Of a stretch of DNA of 64,000 bases, positions 46,146 to 54,012 are shown piece by piece. The position numbers were made by a program, and so were the translations under genes. Every line of letters begins with the position of its first letter. Positions within the stretch are counted from its first letter, which is position 1. Source of the stretch: Salmonirosea aquatica (GTDB taxonomy: Bacteria > Bacteroidota > Bacteroidia > Cytophagales > Spirosomataceae); contig NZ_WHLY01000004.1 of the NCBI RefSeq assembly GCF_009296315.1, forward strand, positions 186,001 through 250,000, in the 5' to 3' direction. The notes beneath the pieces are model-generated. The model saw nothing but the letters and a program-made list of their open reading frames with translations. It searched no databases and was not told where the DNA came from.

Positions 46146-46418
46146 GCTCAATTGGTTGGACTACCTATCACGAGCAACTGATCGCAGAAGGCTGCAAACG
46201 ACTTATTATGAACGCCATCAACTATTGGAACCTGCTGCATCTAACAGACAAAATACAGGCTTGCCCAAAGCTGGCAGCGTACGAGGAACTACTTGTGATG
46301 ATCCTGCGCTCTAACACGCATACCTGGCATCATGTCAATCTACAACAGGGCTGCCTGTGCCACAGAGTACGATTTCTCTGAGGAGAGTCCAATGGCAGTG
46401 CTGTTTGATCTGGAATAG
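46146..46418 (+). pseudogene. C-terminal remnant of a Tn3-family transposase
   Basis: Reading in one frame gives YHEQLIAEGCKRLIMNAINY followed by WNLLHLTDKIQACPKLAAYE and, near 46330, TWHHVNLQ. After a frame shift at about 46340-46360 comes EYDFSEESPMAVLFDLE and a stop. This is the extreme C terminus of a Tn3-type transposase (NAIxxWNxxYL...HINLxGEYDFS). The rest of the gene is missing. It differs clearly from the intact TnpA at 47303-50272, whose last part reads HINRLGRYTF, so it is a trace of a second, older Tn3-family element directly after the sulfatase. Confidence 0.65.
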
Positions 46419-46584: not shown

Positions 46585-46968
46585 TCACTTTTCCTGTTCC
46601 AATTTCTTTTTTTTTAGGAGATAATAGACTGTGGAAACGATGGAATCATTACTCGAACTCGTCAGCGTGTAGGCTTGCACAAACTCATAGCCCATGGTGC
46701 TCATGAAGTTAAGAGCGTCAACAGCGGAATTGAACTGAACTGGCCTGTCGTTCTCATCCCTAACTTCGGTGTCTTTTGTGACCAACGCTTTATCTTCCTG
46801 ACCAAAATCGATATCGATTGTCACTTTGGGAGACAGCAAAACAGGAGTGACTGCGATTATGGCGTGTTCTGATTTCAAATTTCTAATTGAAACGCCATTT
46901 ACGCTCTGGGACCGGGCGGACAGATACCCCGTCAGCGCAAGGCATAGGAGGATCAGGGTTTTTCTCAT
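46585..46968 (-). CDS. Small secreted protein of unknown function
   Basis: 127 residues from the ATG at 46968, which puts the signal peptide (RKTLILLCLALTGYLSARS) first; the frame from 47025 adds 19 unlikely residues. The mature part contains LNFMSTMGYEFVQAYTLTSS and YYLLKKKK, the ending seen in many small Spirosoma- and Dyadobacter-type periplasmic proteins that repeat a strained beta-hairpin after a GYEFV motif. Function unknown. It lies between the Tn3 remnant and the split recombinase. Confidence 0.6.
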   Translation of the reverse strand: MRKTLILLCLALTGYLSARSQSVNGVSIRNLKSEHAIIAVTPVLLSPKVTIDIDFGQEDKALVTKDTEVRDENDRPVQFNSAVDALNFMSTMGYEFVQAYTLTSSSNDSIVSTVYYLLKKKKLEQEK

Positions 46969-47044
46969 GGACGATGTGGATGGATGATTTTTAGCGGCTC
47001 TCCGTTTTCGAGTAACATTCGTCAAAAGGACTTAGGGTGAAAAG

Positions 47045-47260
47045 TTATTGTAAAATCGTAACTAGCGCCTTCCGGTAGCGCTTCACGCTGGATTGGCTGA
47101 TGCCAGTCAGGTTGACGATCTCGGCCACCGACAGGCCCTTCTGGGTGGCAGACTTCACCTTCTGGAAATTCTCCTGGTTCACGCCGGCGCGTCGGCCGAT
47201 GTGTTTGCCCTGGGCCTTGGCCAGCAACTGGCCGGCGCGGGTCTTCTCCAGAATCATTTC
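47045..47260 (-). pseudogene. Serine recombinase, C-terminal half (split by transposon)
   Basis: The sequence MILEKTRAGQLLAKAQGKHI, GRRAGVNQENFQKVKSATQ and a helix-turn-helix (GLSVAEIVNLTGISQSSVKRYR) is the hinge helix and DNA-binding domain of a resolvase/invertase. It joins exactly to the N-terminal half at 51111-51469: that half ends AALAEYDRE before the transposon, and this one resumes with MILEKTRAG. The first bases, ATTTC (47256-47260 on the plus strand), are the target duplication. Not functional while split. Confidence 0.88.
47256..47260. repeat. 5-bp target duplication, left copy
   Basis: ATTTC directly outside the left terminal repeat, repeated at 51111-51115 outside the right one. 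Five base pairs is the usual duplication length for Tn3-family insertion. Confidence 0.85.
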
Positions 47261-47299
47261 GGGCTTCTTTTAGTAAATGGACAAAGAATGGCGCTAAGC
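47261..47299. repeat. Tn3 terminal inverted repeat, left
   Basis: Begins GGGCTTCTTTTAGTAAATGG on the plus strand and ends with GCGCTAAGC. It matches the right repeat except at positions 4, 16, 17, 20, 21 and 29. tnpA stops three bases inside it. Confidence 0.9.
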
Positions 47300-47302
47300 A
47301 CT

Positions 47303-50272
47303 TTACGATCTCAATGGGCGTAAGCCATTCTCCTCAAATTGATCGACTTTCTGAAAAGTGTAACGGCCTAACCGGTTAATATGTGCAAACCTGGCCGGAG
47401 ACAGATGCCCAAAATCATTTTCATCCACTGTGTGCCCATCCTCCTGATGCTTTTTGAGGACTTCCTGAGTATACGCCGTGTTCCAAACCACAACCAAATT
47501 AGTCAGAACGTTCAAACAGCCGGCAGTCTCTTGCTGGGCATCCTCCTGTTTCCTCCGGAGATGGCCGTCGCCACCAAACCAAAGCCACGCACGAAGCGCG
47601 TGCAGCTGCTCCCCCTTGTTAAGCTGGGCATGGATGCGGCGGCGCAACGGTTTGCTTTGCAAATATCGCAGAATGAAGGTTGTTTTAACCAGTTTCCCGT
47701 ACTCTTGCAAGAGTGCCGTCAAATGGTGTTGCCGCGGGTACCCCTGTAATTTGCTGATTAGCAGTGAGGATGTTACCCACCCGCTTTTTAGTGTGGCCGC
47801 AACTCGTAGCAGGTCATCCCATCTGGCACGGACGTATTCTGGTCGGAAGTTTGAAGTGAATTTAAGCGAGGGATACCGTAAGTCCATTCCCTTAATCCGG
47901 CAAAGCCGTTGGTTTGCCAGGTCGCGCAGCCTGGGAGAAAAGAGCAGCCCTAACAAATCGAACAAGGCGAAAACAATATCTGTATATCCGCCGGTGTCTG
48001 TTGTGTGCTCTACAATTTCAAGATCTGTCTCGTTACCCAGTATTTCATCCAGCACATAAGTCGCATCCCGGATTGTCGACGGTACAGATCTACTACCATA
48101 CTGGGCATACTGGTCTGAGGTATGGGTAATGAGCGTATACCCCCTGCCGTAACCGTAATAACGCGGAATGGATTGTGCATTACGGATTTTGCCGCTTACC
48201 GGAAAGCGCTGCCCGTCAGAAGAAGACAACACCCCGCTGCCCCAATAGGAGGACAACCAAAGTTCATGTTGATAGTTAACCAGCCGGACCGTAGCCCGTT
48301 TGAGAGTCTCTTCCCTGATGTAATTGGTCGACACCCACCAAAGTGACTGATAGTCAAGACCTGTACTCTGGGCCATTTCGGCCAGGGGAATATTACATGC
48401 TCCCGCAAGAAGTGCTGCATACAACAATGCCTGGTGGTCTTTACTCTTGGATTCATTCTCCAAACCTGTCAGTTCACTGGAAAATCCTGTCCAATTGTCT
48501 ACTTCGACCAGCAAATCAGTTAGCTCAACCCGCGGCAACAACCTGTCGACAGCTGCCCGAAGCGCTTTTAACGAATCAGGTACGTCATCCGCCTTTAACG
48601 GAGTTACTACCAGCTCACCCTCATCATCCAGACGAATATCACCGCCATCGGCCAGTATTCTTTCCATCAGCGGCAAGTGTGATTCCAGTTCCGAAATTTG
48701 CTCATCCAACCGGTAGGGTGTTGCATCCCTGTAGCCTAAATAGGTAAGCAATTCGGTACGATGCGCTTTCCAGTTGGCTTCCGGGATCAAATAAGTATCC
48801 GGACTCGCATATTTCCGGGAGTGATTCACATAGACATCTCCCGACCGGAGCCGGTCCCGCAGCCGGGCCAGAACACTTAACTCATAAGCGGGTCTGTCAA
48901 TTTGCCCCTTTACAGGCTCAACGAAGGATTTCCAGGATGGCAGCATGAATTTCATAGGTATTTCATCAGGACTCTTTCGCTTTCTGCTCGTTTGCCAGTC
49001 GGCTACCAATTGAAGCGCCTGTTCAAAATCATCCCCTGCAAAGACATGCTCGAAGGTCAGGATATCCAAAAAACTGGCAGAAAAGGATTTAATGGATCGG
49101 TAGCGGTTAACAAGAAAGTGGTGAAAAGTCCTTGGCCCTTGTTTGGTCAGCCTTTGCATGATACTGATGGCTTCTACTAACTCGCTTCTGGATACGCTGG
49201 CATATATACTAGCTCTCAATTCGGCAGCCGGAATGTTGATCTCATCCACAATAGGTTCGGCAGCCTTTCCCAAAGTAACAAGTGCGCCATCCCTGGACTT
49301 GACTTGTTTCAGTTGGTACTCGGTCAGCTCCCGCGCTGATTGGCCACAGATATCCTCCCAGTACTCATCAAAAAGCCTCAGGGTATAATCCGTGATTGTA
49401 ATGTATGCTTCCAGGCAAAAAGCAACCAGCATGGGGTAACGTTTTGTGCCGGACATTCGCATCACTGCCTGATTGGTCTTACTCCTGGCCAGGACTGCAA
49501 GCCGCTTTCGACGGTTGGGATGCAGACTGCTGGTATCCCATTGTTCGATACCGAGCTTGGCAAGATATTGCCGTTTATGCAGCATGAGTTTGATTTGGTT
49601 CGCCGTTGGACTAACCGGAGGTTTTGAAAGCCAGTTGTGTGGGGTTATCTTCAAGACTGTGTCAACGGTCAGAAGCTTGTCTAATTCCTCTTTGAAGGAA
49701 TCGGTCAACAGTGTCGAAAGCCGGCGATAGGTTTCCTGATGCGCTAAATCAGCTAGGGAAACCACCAGCCGCTCCAGTTCGATAATGGCTGGCCTTAAAA
49801 TTCCTTCTTTCCTTAGCCAGTCACATGCCAGAGATAATAGCACATGTTCGTTATCATGCTCTAAGGCTCGCTCCAAAAGCCAACGCTCCAGGGGTACCGT
49901 ATCGATTAGGGGTTGCCACCTTCTTCGTTTTAGATACGAAAGGATCATGTATGAATGTTCCGAGATCGTTTTTTCCCGACTTCCATAATTGTTAAGGCAT
50001 CGCGGATCGTCAATGGCCAGTTGTCCCGCAACATAATTGATCAGATTGTCCGGTACCTTCCGGTACCATTCCTGGGGCAAATGGTTCATCAACCTTATAA
50101 CCGTCAACTGGAGGGCAAACCCTAGCCTGTTGTGATCACGCCGCATACCGGCTACCAGCAGATGATCTGTTGGGGATAGAAAACAATACCGGATTAAATC
50201 CTCCTGCGGTAGATCAGATGGAATGCTTTGATAACGTTCGCGTTCTTGATCAGAAAGAAATTCAGCGGGCAT
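47303..50272 (-). CDS. Tn3-family transposase TnpA
   Basis: 989 residues from the ATG at 50272, which gives the standard MPAEFLSDQERERYQS start; an ATG at 50299 adds nine residues. Length and layout are those of Tn3 transposases: N-terminal DNA-binding part, then the catalytic DDE region in the C-terminal third. The end has RRRIHAQLNKGEQLHALRAW and ETAGCLNVLTNLVVVWNT, then FAHINRLGRYTF. It appears complete. It recognises the 39-bp repeats at the ends of this element and moves it replicatively with a cointegrate intermediate, resolved by the divergent TnpR. Confidence 0.95.
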   Translation of the reverse strand: MPAEFLSDQERERYQSIPSDLPQEDLIRYCFLSPTDHLLVAGMRRDHNRLGFALQLTVIRLMNHLPQEWYRKVPDNLINYVAGQLAIDDPRCLNNYGSREKTISEHSYMILSYLKRRRWQPLIDTVPLERWLLERALEHDNEHVLLSLACDWLRKEGILRPAIIELERLVVSLADLAHQETYRRLSTLLTDSFKEELDKLLTVDTVLKITPHNWLSKPPVSPTANQIKLMLHKRQYLAKLGIEQWDTSSLHPNRRKRLAVLARSKTNQAVMRMSGTKRYPMLVAFCLEAYITITDYTLRLFDEYWEDICGQSARELTEYQLKQVKSRDGALVTLGKAAEPIVDEINIPAAELRASIYASVSRSELVEAISIMQRLTKQGPRTFHHFLVNRYRSIKSFSASFLDILTFEHVFAGDDFEQALQLVADWQTSRKRKSPDEIPMKFMLPSWKSFVEPVKGQIDRPAYELSVLARLRDRLRSGDVYVNHSRKYASPDTYLIPEANWKAHRTELLTYLGYRDATPYRLDEQISELESHLPLMERILADGGDIRLDDEGELVVTPLKADDVPDSLKALRAAVDRLLPRVELTDLLVEVDNWTGFSSELTGLENESKSKDHQALLYAALLAGACNIPLAEMAQSTGLDYQSLWWVSTNYIREETLKRATVRLVNYQHELWLSSYWGSGVLSSSDGQRFPVSGKIRNAQSIPRYYGYGRGYTLITHTSDQYAQYGSRSVPSTIRDATYVLDEILGNETDLEIVEHTTDTGGYTDIVFALFDLLGLLFSPRLRDLANQRLCRIKGMDLRYPSLKFTSNFRPEYVRARWDDLLRVAATLKSGWVTSSLLISKLQGYPRQHHLTALLQEYGKLVKTTFILRYLQSKPLRRRIHAQLNKGEQLHALRAWLWFGGDGHLRRKQEDAQQETAGCLNVLTNLVVVWNTAYTQEVLKKHQEDGHTVDENDFGHLSPARFAHINRLGRYTFQKVDQFEENGLRPLRS

Positions 50273-50299
50273 AGTTTTGATCCGGCGGAGTGGTGGCAA

Positions 50300-50443
50300 A
50301 AAAACGTTCGTTTACAGGTACAGCTCCTTACTTCTGGAAAAGAGGCGGAACCTGGTGAAAAAGTTGTATCCAAAACTTATCTACTTTATGAATGTACCGT
50401 ATATTGCGAATTAATGAGTATCAGATACAAACTACAAAAATCA
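50300..50443. promoter_or_regulatory. Putative res site and divergent promoter region of the transposon
   Basis: A short spacer between divergent tnpA and tnpR, where Tn3 elements carry the res site and both promoters. TGTATC (about 50366) and GATACA (about 50423) form an inverted pair, and GTACCGTATATTGCGAATTA begins a stretch with partial dyad symmetry. I cannot define the three subsites with confidence. Confidence 0.4.
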
Positions 50444-51052
50444 ATGCGGGTAGGATACGCACGGGTCAGCACCCAGGAGCAAACATTAGATTCGCAGACC
50501 GATGCTTTACGTCAGGCAGGTTGCGAACGGATTTATGAAGACAGAATATCCGGAACGAAGTCCCGTAAACCGGAATTTGAATTGATGATGGGTTTCTTAC
50601 GTAAGGGGGATACCATCGTAATCTGGAAGCTGGACCGGCTGGGGAGGTCGACACGTGGGCTTATTGAACTCGTTGAAGAACTTGGCAACAAAGGCATCCA
50701 TCTGGTGTCTCTCAATGATCCTATCGATACTACTTCACCCGGAGGCTTGCTAGTGTTCCAAATATTCTGTGCGCTTGCTGAACATGAGCGCAATGTCATT
50801 GTGCAGCGTACCCGTGCCGGACTCGAGTCGGCTCGTGCCAGAGGGAGAAAAGGTGGTCGACCAAAGGGATTAGCTGTAAAATATCAGAAGATGGCTCCTT
50901 CGGTAAGGGATCTTTATGAACTAGGCCAGCAGTCTACAACCCAAATCATGAATTCCTTTCAGATTGGAAGTCGCAGGACATTGTACAAGATACTTCGTCA
51001 CGCCGGGGTTAGCATCAGGCCGGTTGAGCGCTCAATACGTAAGGATGATTGA
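50444..51052 (+). CDS. Tn3-family resolvase TnpR (serine recombinase)
   Basis: 202 residues from the ATG at 50444 (MRVGYARVSTQEQ), where Ser9 is the nucleophile; upstream in-frame ATGs at 50414 and 50228 overlap the spacer and tnpA. Catalytic domain at about 1-120 with SGTKSRKPEFELMM, IVIWKLDRLGRSTRGLIEL, DTTSPGGLLVFQIF and ALAEHERNVIVQRTRAGL. C-terminal helix-turn-helix at about 145-195. It resolves cointegrates at the res site between itself and tnpA. Its sequence differs clearly from the split recombinase that the element interrupts. Confidence 0.93.
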   Translation: MRVGYARVSTQEQTLDSQTDALRQAGCERIYEDRISGTKSRKPEFELMMGFLRKGDTIVIWKLDRLGRSTRGLIELVEELGNKGIHLVSLNDPIDTTSPGGLLVFQIFCALAEHERNVIVQRTRAGLESARARGRKGGRPKGLAVKYQKMAPSVRDLYELGQQSTTQIMNSFQIGSRRTLYKILRHAGVSIRPVERSIRKDD

Positions 51053-51071
51053 AATTCCCGGGCGGCGTTCC

Positions 51072-51110
51072 GCTTAGCGCTATTCTTTGGTCAGATACTA
51101 AAAGAATCCC
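51072..51110. repeat. Tn3 terminal inverted repeat, right
   Basis: On the minus strand it begins GGGATTCTTTTAGTATCTGA and ends GCGCTAAGC. It pairs with the left repeat at 33 of 39 positions. Confidence 0.9.
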
Positions 51111-51115
51111 ATTTC
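51111..51115. repeat. 5-bp target duplication, right copy
   Basis: ATTTC, the direct repeat of 47256-47260, adjoining the right terminal repeat. Confidence 0.85.
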
Positions 51116-51469
51116 GCGGTCGTACTCGGCCAGGGCGGCGAAGATGCCGATCACCAGCTTGCCCGAGGGCGTGGCCGAGTCGATGCCCAGGTCCAGGGCC
51201 TTGAAGACGATGCCGCGCTCGGAGAAGTTGCCGATCAGCTGGATCAGGTGGTCGCGGCTGCGGCCCAGGCGGTTGAAGCGGGAGACGACCACCGTGTCGC
51301 CGGGGCGGAGCAGGGCGAGCATTTCGTCCAGGGCTGGGCGCTGCACCGAAAGGCCGCTGATTTTTTCCTGGAAGATGCGGTCGCAGCCGAACTTCCCGAG
51401 CGCGTCGAGCTGGGTGTCGGTGTTCTGGTCGGCGGTCGAGACACGAGCGTAACCAAAGGTCTGGTTCAT
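51111..51469 (-). pseudogene. Serine recombinase, N-terminal half (split by transposon)
   Basis: From the ATG at 51469: MNQTFGYARVSTADQNTDTQ with nucleophile Ser11, then SVQRPALDEMLALLRPGDTV, VVSRFNRLGRSRDHLIQLIG, SATPSGKLVIGIFAALAEYDRE, after which the transposon begins. The matching C-terminal half is at 47045-47260, and together they give about 190 residues, the normal size of a resolvase/invertase. The GC content is much higher than in neighbouring genes, especially at wobble positions, which suggests that it was acquired from elsewhere before being interrupted. Confidence 0.9.
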
Positions 51470-51493
51470 GGGACAGTCAGGTGAAAGAGCCAT

Positions 51494-51896
51494 TAAGTCG
51501 GGTCCATAAAGGTACTCTTTCTTTTGAGCTGGCCCTACTTTTTGAACCTGGTTTCTGGTCGTGCAGCGATAGCGGCAGGTAGACTCAGCGACCGGTTCAG
51601 AAAGGTATGGATTGTTGAACCCCTGTTAGTCCCAAAGCGCCGCTATGCCGACGATGCCCGAAGGCCGTGGAAGTTTGCGTTGTATTGTGGAACTTCTATT
51701 TAATTAAATAATTTATTCCAACGACCTAACATGCTTACTACATAATTCGGTTGCAATATATATATGGGTGTACTCAATTCTAAGCCTCCTGGATCCGTAG
51801 GTTCTGGGAAAAGGATAAAGAAGCTGTTCATTGCCGAATTTGATTAGTGTCTATTATCATCTGTTTGAGTTAGAGAAGCACCTTGTTAACGCATGC
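51494..51896. other. Gap between recombinase and small decayed gene
   Basis: No supported gene. A 27-codon frame at 51764-51847 (GSGKRIKKLFIAEFD ending) exists, but nothing supports it beyond composition. Confidence 0.35.
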
Positions 51897-53025: not shown

Positions 53026-54012
53026 CTACTCCTTCGGAAAATACCGGCGTTCGAACTCGCTGTATGAAAACGCCGCCGGGTTCAGATTCTGATTATCCAA
53101 TAGCGTGATGTTAATATCGTATGCGGTTTTGTAGATTTGATCTGCGGGTACGCGTTGAAGGATGCGGTTAATTTGCAGGCTGGAAAGTTTTAACTTTGCC
53201 AGGATCTCTTTGGGTGGCACCTTTCCCGGTACTTCCACTGCCACGATCTGGGCTGCCGATTCACTCTCCGTTTCCGGAAATAGCTGTTGCTGTCCTGAGT
53301 CTATGTCGGGAGAAGGTTTTAGTGATGCACTCGTGGCAAAATAGAACCTTATTCCTTCTACTTTTCTGCCTTTCTTAACCAGGTCATAAGTAAAGGCCAT
53401 ATCACTGCTTTTCAATTCTTTCTTAGCAGCGTTGATCACTTTCAATTTGAAATCCTGAAATCTTTCGTATTTCTCCCGTAAATTAAGCATTTCCCGGAGT
53501 TCATCAATCTCGATGTAGCGCTGGCCAAAGGCCTGGTGCTGCTTTAGTAGCCAATAGAGCCGATAACTGTAAAAGCTCTTCAATCGGAATAACTGCTTTA
53601 TCTCCGCCTGAGTGAAGTTACCGGCCAGGTTTAACAGGTAGGGTTTCAGTTTATTGTTAAACTGTGCCGTAATTGTTGCCTCCCCCTCCTGGTATGCAAC
53701 CATCGCCATGAGCGGTAGCACGATAAACTTCTTTCGCATTCCCCCACTGTTCCCTTCCACCAAGGATTCGATCTGAATTACTTTCTTGCTCAGGCTGACA
53801 CAGGAATCTTTGATAATTTGGTAAGTTTTACCACCCGAAGCCTTATCCATGAAATCGGTTAAATGGATCTGGCATTCGGAAAATTCGGTGTCGGCTTTGC
53901 TTAGACGCCCTAGTAGTGAAATGAAAAGTCTCATTTCGTAAGTTGACATATCAAACTTCGCATTGACCAGATGATTATGCTGAGTGGCCTTTTTGGTGAT
54001 GTGCTTTTCCAT
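53026..54012 (-). CDS. Rep_3-type plasmid replication initiator
   Basis: 328 residues. Two winged-helix domains as in RepE/Pi/RepB initiators: the first with VNAKFDMSTYEMRLFISLLG, FSECQIHLTDF and YQIIKDSCVSLSKKVIQIES; the second with QLFRLKSFYSYRLYWLLKQH and RYIEIDELREML, then FQDFKLKVINAAKKEL. The C-terminal 90 residues are less conserved. It binds the iterons found just upstream (54120-54324) to open the origin. The region directly before its start contains a partial inverted iteron (54039-54049) overlapping a -7-like TTCTTTTG, which would allow autorepression by dimers. Its presence argues that this is a replicon rather than an integrative element. Confidence 0.88.
   Translation of the reverse strand: MEKHITKKATQHNHLVNAKFDMSTYEMRLFISLLGRLSKADTEFSECQIHLTDFMDKASGGKTYQIIKDSCVSLSKKVIQIESLVEGNSGGMRKKFIVLPLMAMVAYQEGEATITAQFNNKLKPYLLNLAGNFTQAEIKQLFRLKSFYSYRLYWLLKQHQAFGQRYIEIDELREMLNLREKYERFQDFKLKVINAAKKELKSSDMAFTYDLVKKGRKVEGIRFYFATSASLKPSPDIDSGQQQLFPETESESAAQIVAVEVPGKVPPKEILAKLKLSSLQINRILQRVPADQIYKTAYDINITLLDNQNLNPAAFSYSEFERRYFPKE

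Follow-up and report, generated by a model that had tools for sequence, protein, structure and literature searches.

Small serine resolvases are known from plasmid backbones, for example Sin in staphylococcal plasmids and Res of pAMbeta1, in each case with an upstream multi-part site that contains a palindromic crossover subsite. In known res sites, recombination takes place in site I, and site III adjoins tnpR (PMC7157771). In staphylococcal plasmids, such resolvases have res sites nearby, their genes are frequently truncated, and transposon insertions have been reported at the loci (PMC3276174). Tn3-family transposons, in turn, are represented on bacteroidete plasmids by an element of Hymenobacter sp. 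BRD67, which carries a full-length transposase and a serine resolvase in divergent genes, terminal repeats of about 38-40 bp, and a 5-bp target duplication. Here, we describe a locus in a 64,000-nucleotide stretch (the window) of a Salmonirosea aquatica plasmid, contig C4, in which a Tn3-family transposon lies inside a second serine-recombinase gene. The older gene appears to share with Sin and Res of pAMbeta1 both the backbone setting and the multi-part upstream site with a palindromic crossover subsite, but it differs from them in its site motif, its bacteroidete lineage, and the putative status of its activity; also unlike the staphylococcal loci, the insertion is in the coding region and not in the res site. 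The best explanation overall, to which we assign a probability of roughly 0.8, is a recent Tn3-family insertion in a plasmid resolvase gene that likely resolved multimers or cointegrates, with resolution probably retained by the plasmid.

The inserted element spans 3,850 bp (47261..51110). It is bounded by 39-bp terminal inverted repeats at 47261..47299 (plus strand) and 51072..51110 (minus strand), which match at 33/39 positions, and it is flanked by ATTTC target-site duplications at 47256..47260 and 51111..51115; the initial annotation had already given the limits of the element, the 39-bp repeats, and the ATTTC duplications. The transposase gene tnpA (47303..50299, minus strand) encodes a full-length Tn3-family protein of 998 aa, which matches NCBIfam NF033527 (2.3e-247, covering 3-954/954) and Pfam DDE_Tnp_Tn3 (covering 1-389/389). 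The transposon's own serine resolvase gene, tnpR (50441..51052, plus strand; about 203 aa; Pfam Resolvase, 1.3e-44), is complete and divergent from tnpA. With a DDE transposase, terminal repeats of about 38 bp, and a 5-bp target duplication, the element belongs to the Tn3 family. The region between tnpA and tnpR is 82% conserved in a related element, but no individual res subsites could be discerned in it. The Hymenobacter sp. BRD67 element encodes the closest TnpA on public plasmids, at 58% identity, and no copy of the transposon above that identity was found among those plasmids; a near-full copy with 81% DNA identity is present in one genome of the same family as S. aquatica. In contrast to the Hymenobacter element, the transposon described here carries no cargo genes.

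The exact 3,850-bp unit, at 100% identity, is also found on two other plasmids of this genome, C1 and C3. The C1 copy (C1:94680-98529; L011 9681-13530) interrupts an FtsX/MacB-like permease gene and has TTATA duplicated at both flanks, which fits the Tn3-family target consensus TTWTA (PMC8116780). No target duplication accompanies the transposon on C3. Given that not one difference separates the copies, the movement of the transposon must have been recent; replicative transposition with a cointegrate intermediate would be consistent with the finding of identical copies on three plasmids. Contig C3 shows the element twice (L012 1504-5351 and C3:16124-19973), both times with no target duplication; these are probably one copy, because the contig represents about 1.9 turns of a 14.6-kb plasmid and the differences are indels only. 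We considered whether the transposon targets resolvase genes and rejected the idea, since the C1 copy, with its TTATA flanks, lies in the permease gene and indicates no preference for resolvases.

The interrupted gene lies on the minus strand on either side of the element. Its 5' part (51111..51469; Pfam Resolvase, 5.5e-34) encodes the catalytic domain, from MNQTF at codon 1 to about codon 119, and as it stands runs 4 residues into the transposon before a stop (..AEYDREMGFF*). Its 3' part (47045..47260, about 70 codons) encodes the rest of the dimerisation helix and a helix-turn-helix DNA-binding domain; this part has only a weak, sub-threshold HTH_7/HTH match in Pfam, and its identity to the corresponding C-terminal regions of close relatives of full length is 71-82%. 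When the element and one copy of ATTTC are taken out, a single open frame is restored, 189 codons long if read from the ATG at 51469 and 197 if read from an upstream ATG at 51493, with a junction that reads ...AALAEYDRE-MILEKTRAG...; the initial annotation had predicted this in-frame join and a resolvase of about 190 residues. The likely start is the ATG at 51469, because the MN(Q/K) position is where every close relative starts; it is also the end coordinate in the initial annotation. An intact Persicitalea jodogahamensis protein aligns with the joined protein through the junction (88% over residues 9-196), a result far beyond chance, and other full-length, intact matches occur in Arundinibacter roseus (82-87%, five copies) and Telluribacter humicola (84%). 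It also matches, again across the junction, PDB structures of a Gin-type invertase and of the Tn3 and gamma-delta resolvases, the latter two over residues 12-187. The alignment contains the catalytic motifs FGYARVST (YARVS) and NRLGRSR (with the RLGRS arginines). The joined protein combines an N-terminal resolvase domain and a C-terminal HTH in about 190 aa. Thus, the end-to-end alignment proposed as a check of the original reading was obtained, and the halves do not match different families: they share their nearest relatives, in the same clade, with the N-terminal half 93% and the C-terminal half 79% identical to Persicitalea. The N-terminal half is the more similar throughout, as expected for a catalytic domain. 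The mechanism originally proposed is right: a resolvase-carrying transposon split a second recombinase gene, one whose protein is distinct from TnpR (42-44% identity).

In gamma-delta resolvase, the point that corresponds to the AEYDRE/MILEKT cut is the start of a long helix that contributes to the dimer interface and continues toward the DNA-binding domain. Based on this position, we infer loss of function, and the gene was almost certainly killed by the insertion, its product being predicted to be inactive. Neither half shows decay: over the whole gene, dN/dS ranges from 0.05 to 0.17, with 0.17 against Persicitalea and 0.16 against a paralogue on the same plasmid, so purifying selection acted on it up to the insertion or nearly so. 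It belongs to a plasmid-associated resolvase group of Spirosomataceae, and in a phylogenetic tree, the window gene clusters with the same-plasmid paralogue and Persicitalea (97/94). The uninterrupted allele suggested as a further check was found only in a looser sense, as intact relatives in other contexts (82-88%); no public empty allele with the same flanks was found, the genus having no other genome in the collection searched. A literature search by name for insertions in resolvase genes returned none.

Could the apparent insertion be an assembly artefact, with two unrelated contigs falsely linked through a repeat within a resolvase gene? The 3.85-kb element is indeed repeated in the genome, and contig ends were left untrimmed (an overlap of about 10.9 kb on C4 and the 1.9 turns of C3), but a perfect 5-bp duplication and a single frame that continues exactly across the joint are not expected from a false join, and we regard this explanation as exceedingly improbable. 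The ends of C4 (C4:300000-310753 versus the contig start) share a stretch of about 10.9 kb or more that differs by indels only, as in an untrimmed circular plasmid, which is about 297 kb once these ends are merged. What looked like a second copy of the pseudogene, at C4:306691, is accordingly not a third locus; it lies within this overlap, at the end of the circular contig that is less well polished.

Upstream of the split gene, a conserved motif, its spacing, and its position before the start codon mark a candidate res-like site at about 51489..51619 (minus strand). It consists of a partly palindromic, crossover-like subsite I, TTCAACAATCCATACCTTTCTGAA (51596-51619), an accessory half-site, GGTTCAAAAAGTAGG (51534-51548), and a further half-site, TACCTTTATGGACC (51501-51514). 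Toward the start codon, the order is the partly palindromic block, 63-65 bp, GGTTCAAAAAGTAGG, TACCTTTATGGACC, and a final half-site. Both blocks, with the 63-65-bp spacing and in the same position, are present in 21 of the 29 sequences compared, including the window and its two genome-mates. A strict form of this pattern occurs in only three distinct places in the 7.07-Mb genome, each upstream of a member of the split gene's resolvase family (a fourth match, in the overlapping end of contig C4, is not counted as distinct), and a backwards control pattern gives 0 matches in the same 7.07 Mb. The layout agrees with the order of known res sites, with site I far from the gene and the last part beside it. 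This is the probable recombination (res) site of the split resolvase, and it was left intact by the insertion.

What role did the older recombinase play? A gene for a Rep3-type plasmid replication initiator (53026..54012, minus strand; Pfam Rep3_N, 9.5e-29) lies about 1.4 kb from the res-like site, upstream of it. Rep3 genes occur only twice in the genome, on C4 and on C1, and about 0.4 kb downstream of the C1 gene the same res-like site is again present, accompanied by a truncated resolvase. Persicitalea has an intact member of this resolvase clade at a distance of 2.4 kb from a Rep3 gene. The order rep-res-resolvase is thus repeated on C1 and in Persicitalea; both this recurrence and the conserved multi-part site beside the gene support a role in multimer resolution. 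More broadly, of 20 relative genomes scanned for Rep3, 10 carry a resolvase and a Rep3 gene on one contig, though often separated by tens of kb; close proximity to rep is limited to three or four replicons. Among full-length relatives with annotated flanks, the nine closest have no Tn3 transposase within those flanks (up to 5 kb either way), and this, together with the Rep3 linkage, favours a plasmid-maintenance resolvase. The C1 resolvase (L011 4100-4461) is broken after about 60 codons and fused to an apparent transposase remnant, with its res-like site intact. Chromosome C2 (L010 9315-9794) carries an N-terminally truncated resolvase of the same family.

Set against backbone carriage is a decayed, frameshifted C-terminal fragment of a different Tn3-family tnpA at 46148..46400 (plus strand), 0.6 kb beyond the split gene, convergent with it, and directly after a sulfatase gene; it matches a Fibrella plasmid TnpA (52% over 65 aa, 6.9e-19). 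The split gene might then have served as tnpR in an earlier Tn3-family transposon that has since decayed, and not as a multimer resolvase of the plasmid backbone. The fragment belongs to the subgroup of the Fibrella mercury transposon, and in three genomes, Fibrella among them, homologues with about 72% identity lie beside a full tnpA with the res-like site between the two genes. In the mercury Tn3-family transposon of Fibrella sp. ES10-3-2-2 (CP155474.1), TnpR is about 73% identical to the split-gene protein and has the same type of res-like site, but, unlike the split gene, it sits beside an intact tnpA between terminal repeats and belongs to a sister clade. That sister clade does serve Tn3 transposons; however, the tnpA-linked homologues form a clade of their own (95/87), whereas the window gene groups with its paralogue and Persicitalea. 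Moreover, the fragment is convergent and on the 3' side of the gene, whereas Fibrella has its tnpA in divergent orientation at the res end, and a search of the window for Fibrella-type terminal repeats found none. Because of the wrong orientation and side and the missing repeats, we consider the origin from a transposon unlikely. The suggestion in the initial annotation that the older recombinase resolved plasmid multimers has gained a conserved res-like site and a Rep3 adjacency repeated on C1 and in Persicitalea; it is supported but not proven. A small, secreted-looking open reading frame (46585-47025) lies downstream of the split gene, and a similar peptide, noticed by eye, is encoded immediately before a resolvase gene in Arundinibacter.

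The intact paralogue on the same plasmid (C4:9459-10061) is 82% identical to the split resolvase and has its own matching res-like site at C4:9347-9420, of the same type and with the same central AT, in which subsite I is a near-perfect palindrome, TCCAGAAAGCTATACCTTTCTGAA. The paralogue gene is opposite in orientation to the split gene; the two sites are therefore inverted, and deletion of the intervening segment is not expected. A large gene that seemed to be conserved upstream of both the paralogue and an Arundinibacter homologue was rejected, the two genes being unrelated. The paralogue also bears on the initial proposal that loss of the older recombinase could matter for plasmid stability. 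A real fitness cost, in which resolvase loss destabilises the plasmid, would be in keeping with the broken copy being the rep-linked one, as the broken copy on C1 is too; yet the same replicon has an intact paralogue accompanied by a site of this kind, the transposon contributes a complete tnpR of its own, and ParA-type partition ATPases are encoded by both C1 and C4. The proposal is thereby weakened, and we judge such a cost very unlikely. We also speculate, with considerable doubt, on a functional swap in which tnpR and res of the transposon replace the rep-linked resolvase while the paralogue serves the remaining res-like site in trans, a low-cost form of turnover.

In total, we favour a history in which the uninterrupted gene most likely encoded a resolvase for the adjacent upstream res-like site with its three parts and, in the backbone beside the Rep3 origin region, would have resolved plasmid multimers or cointegrates. 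A transposon comprising tnpA, tnpR, and 39-bp ends then entered recently at codon ~119 and duplicated 5 bp of the target, presumably by ordinary replicative transposition. The 5' piece keeps the catalytic domain but has lost the DNA-binding domain and most of the dimerisation helix; the 3' piece consists of a DNA-binding domain alone. With the site intact and a paralogue with a matching site at hand, the plasmid probably still resolves, the paralogue compensating for the loss.

The disruption itself is an ordinary, routine insertion of a known type, because the plasmid also has an intact sister gene and the incoming transposon supplies a recombinase of its own. If the functional swap were true, resolution systems of plasmids would turn over by transposon hits at little cost. 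In any case, a clean and recent Tn3-family insertion is now documented in a Spirosomataceae plasmid, and a probable res site has been delimited by conservation for a widespread, uncharacterised group of bacteroidete resolvases, a site that may be useful for annotating plasmid stability modules in the phylum.
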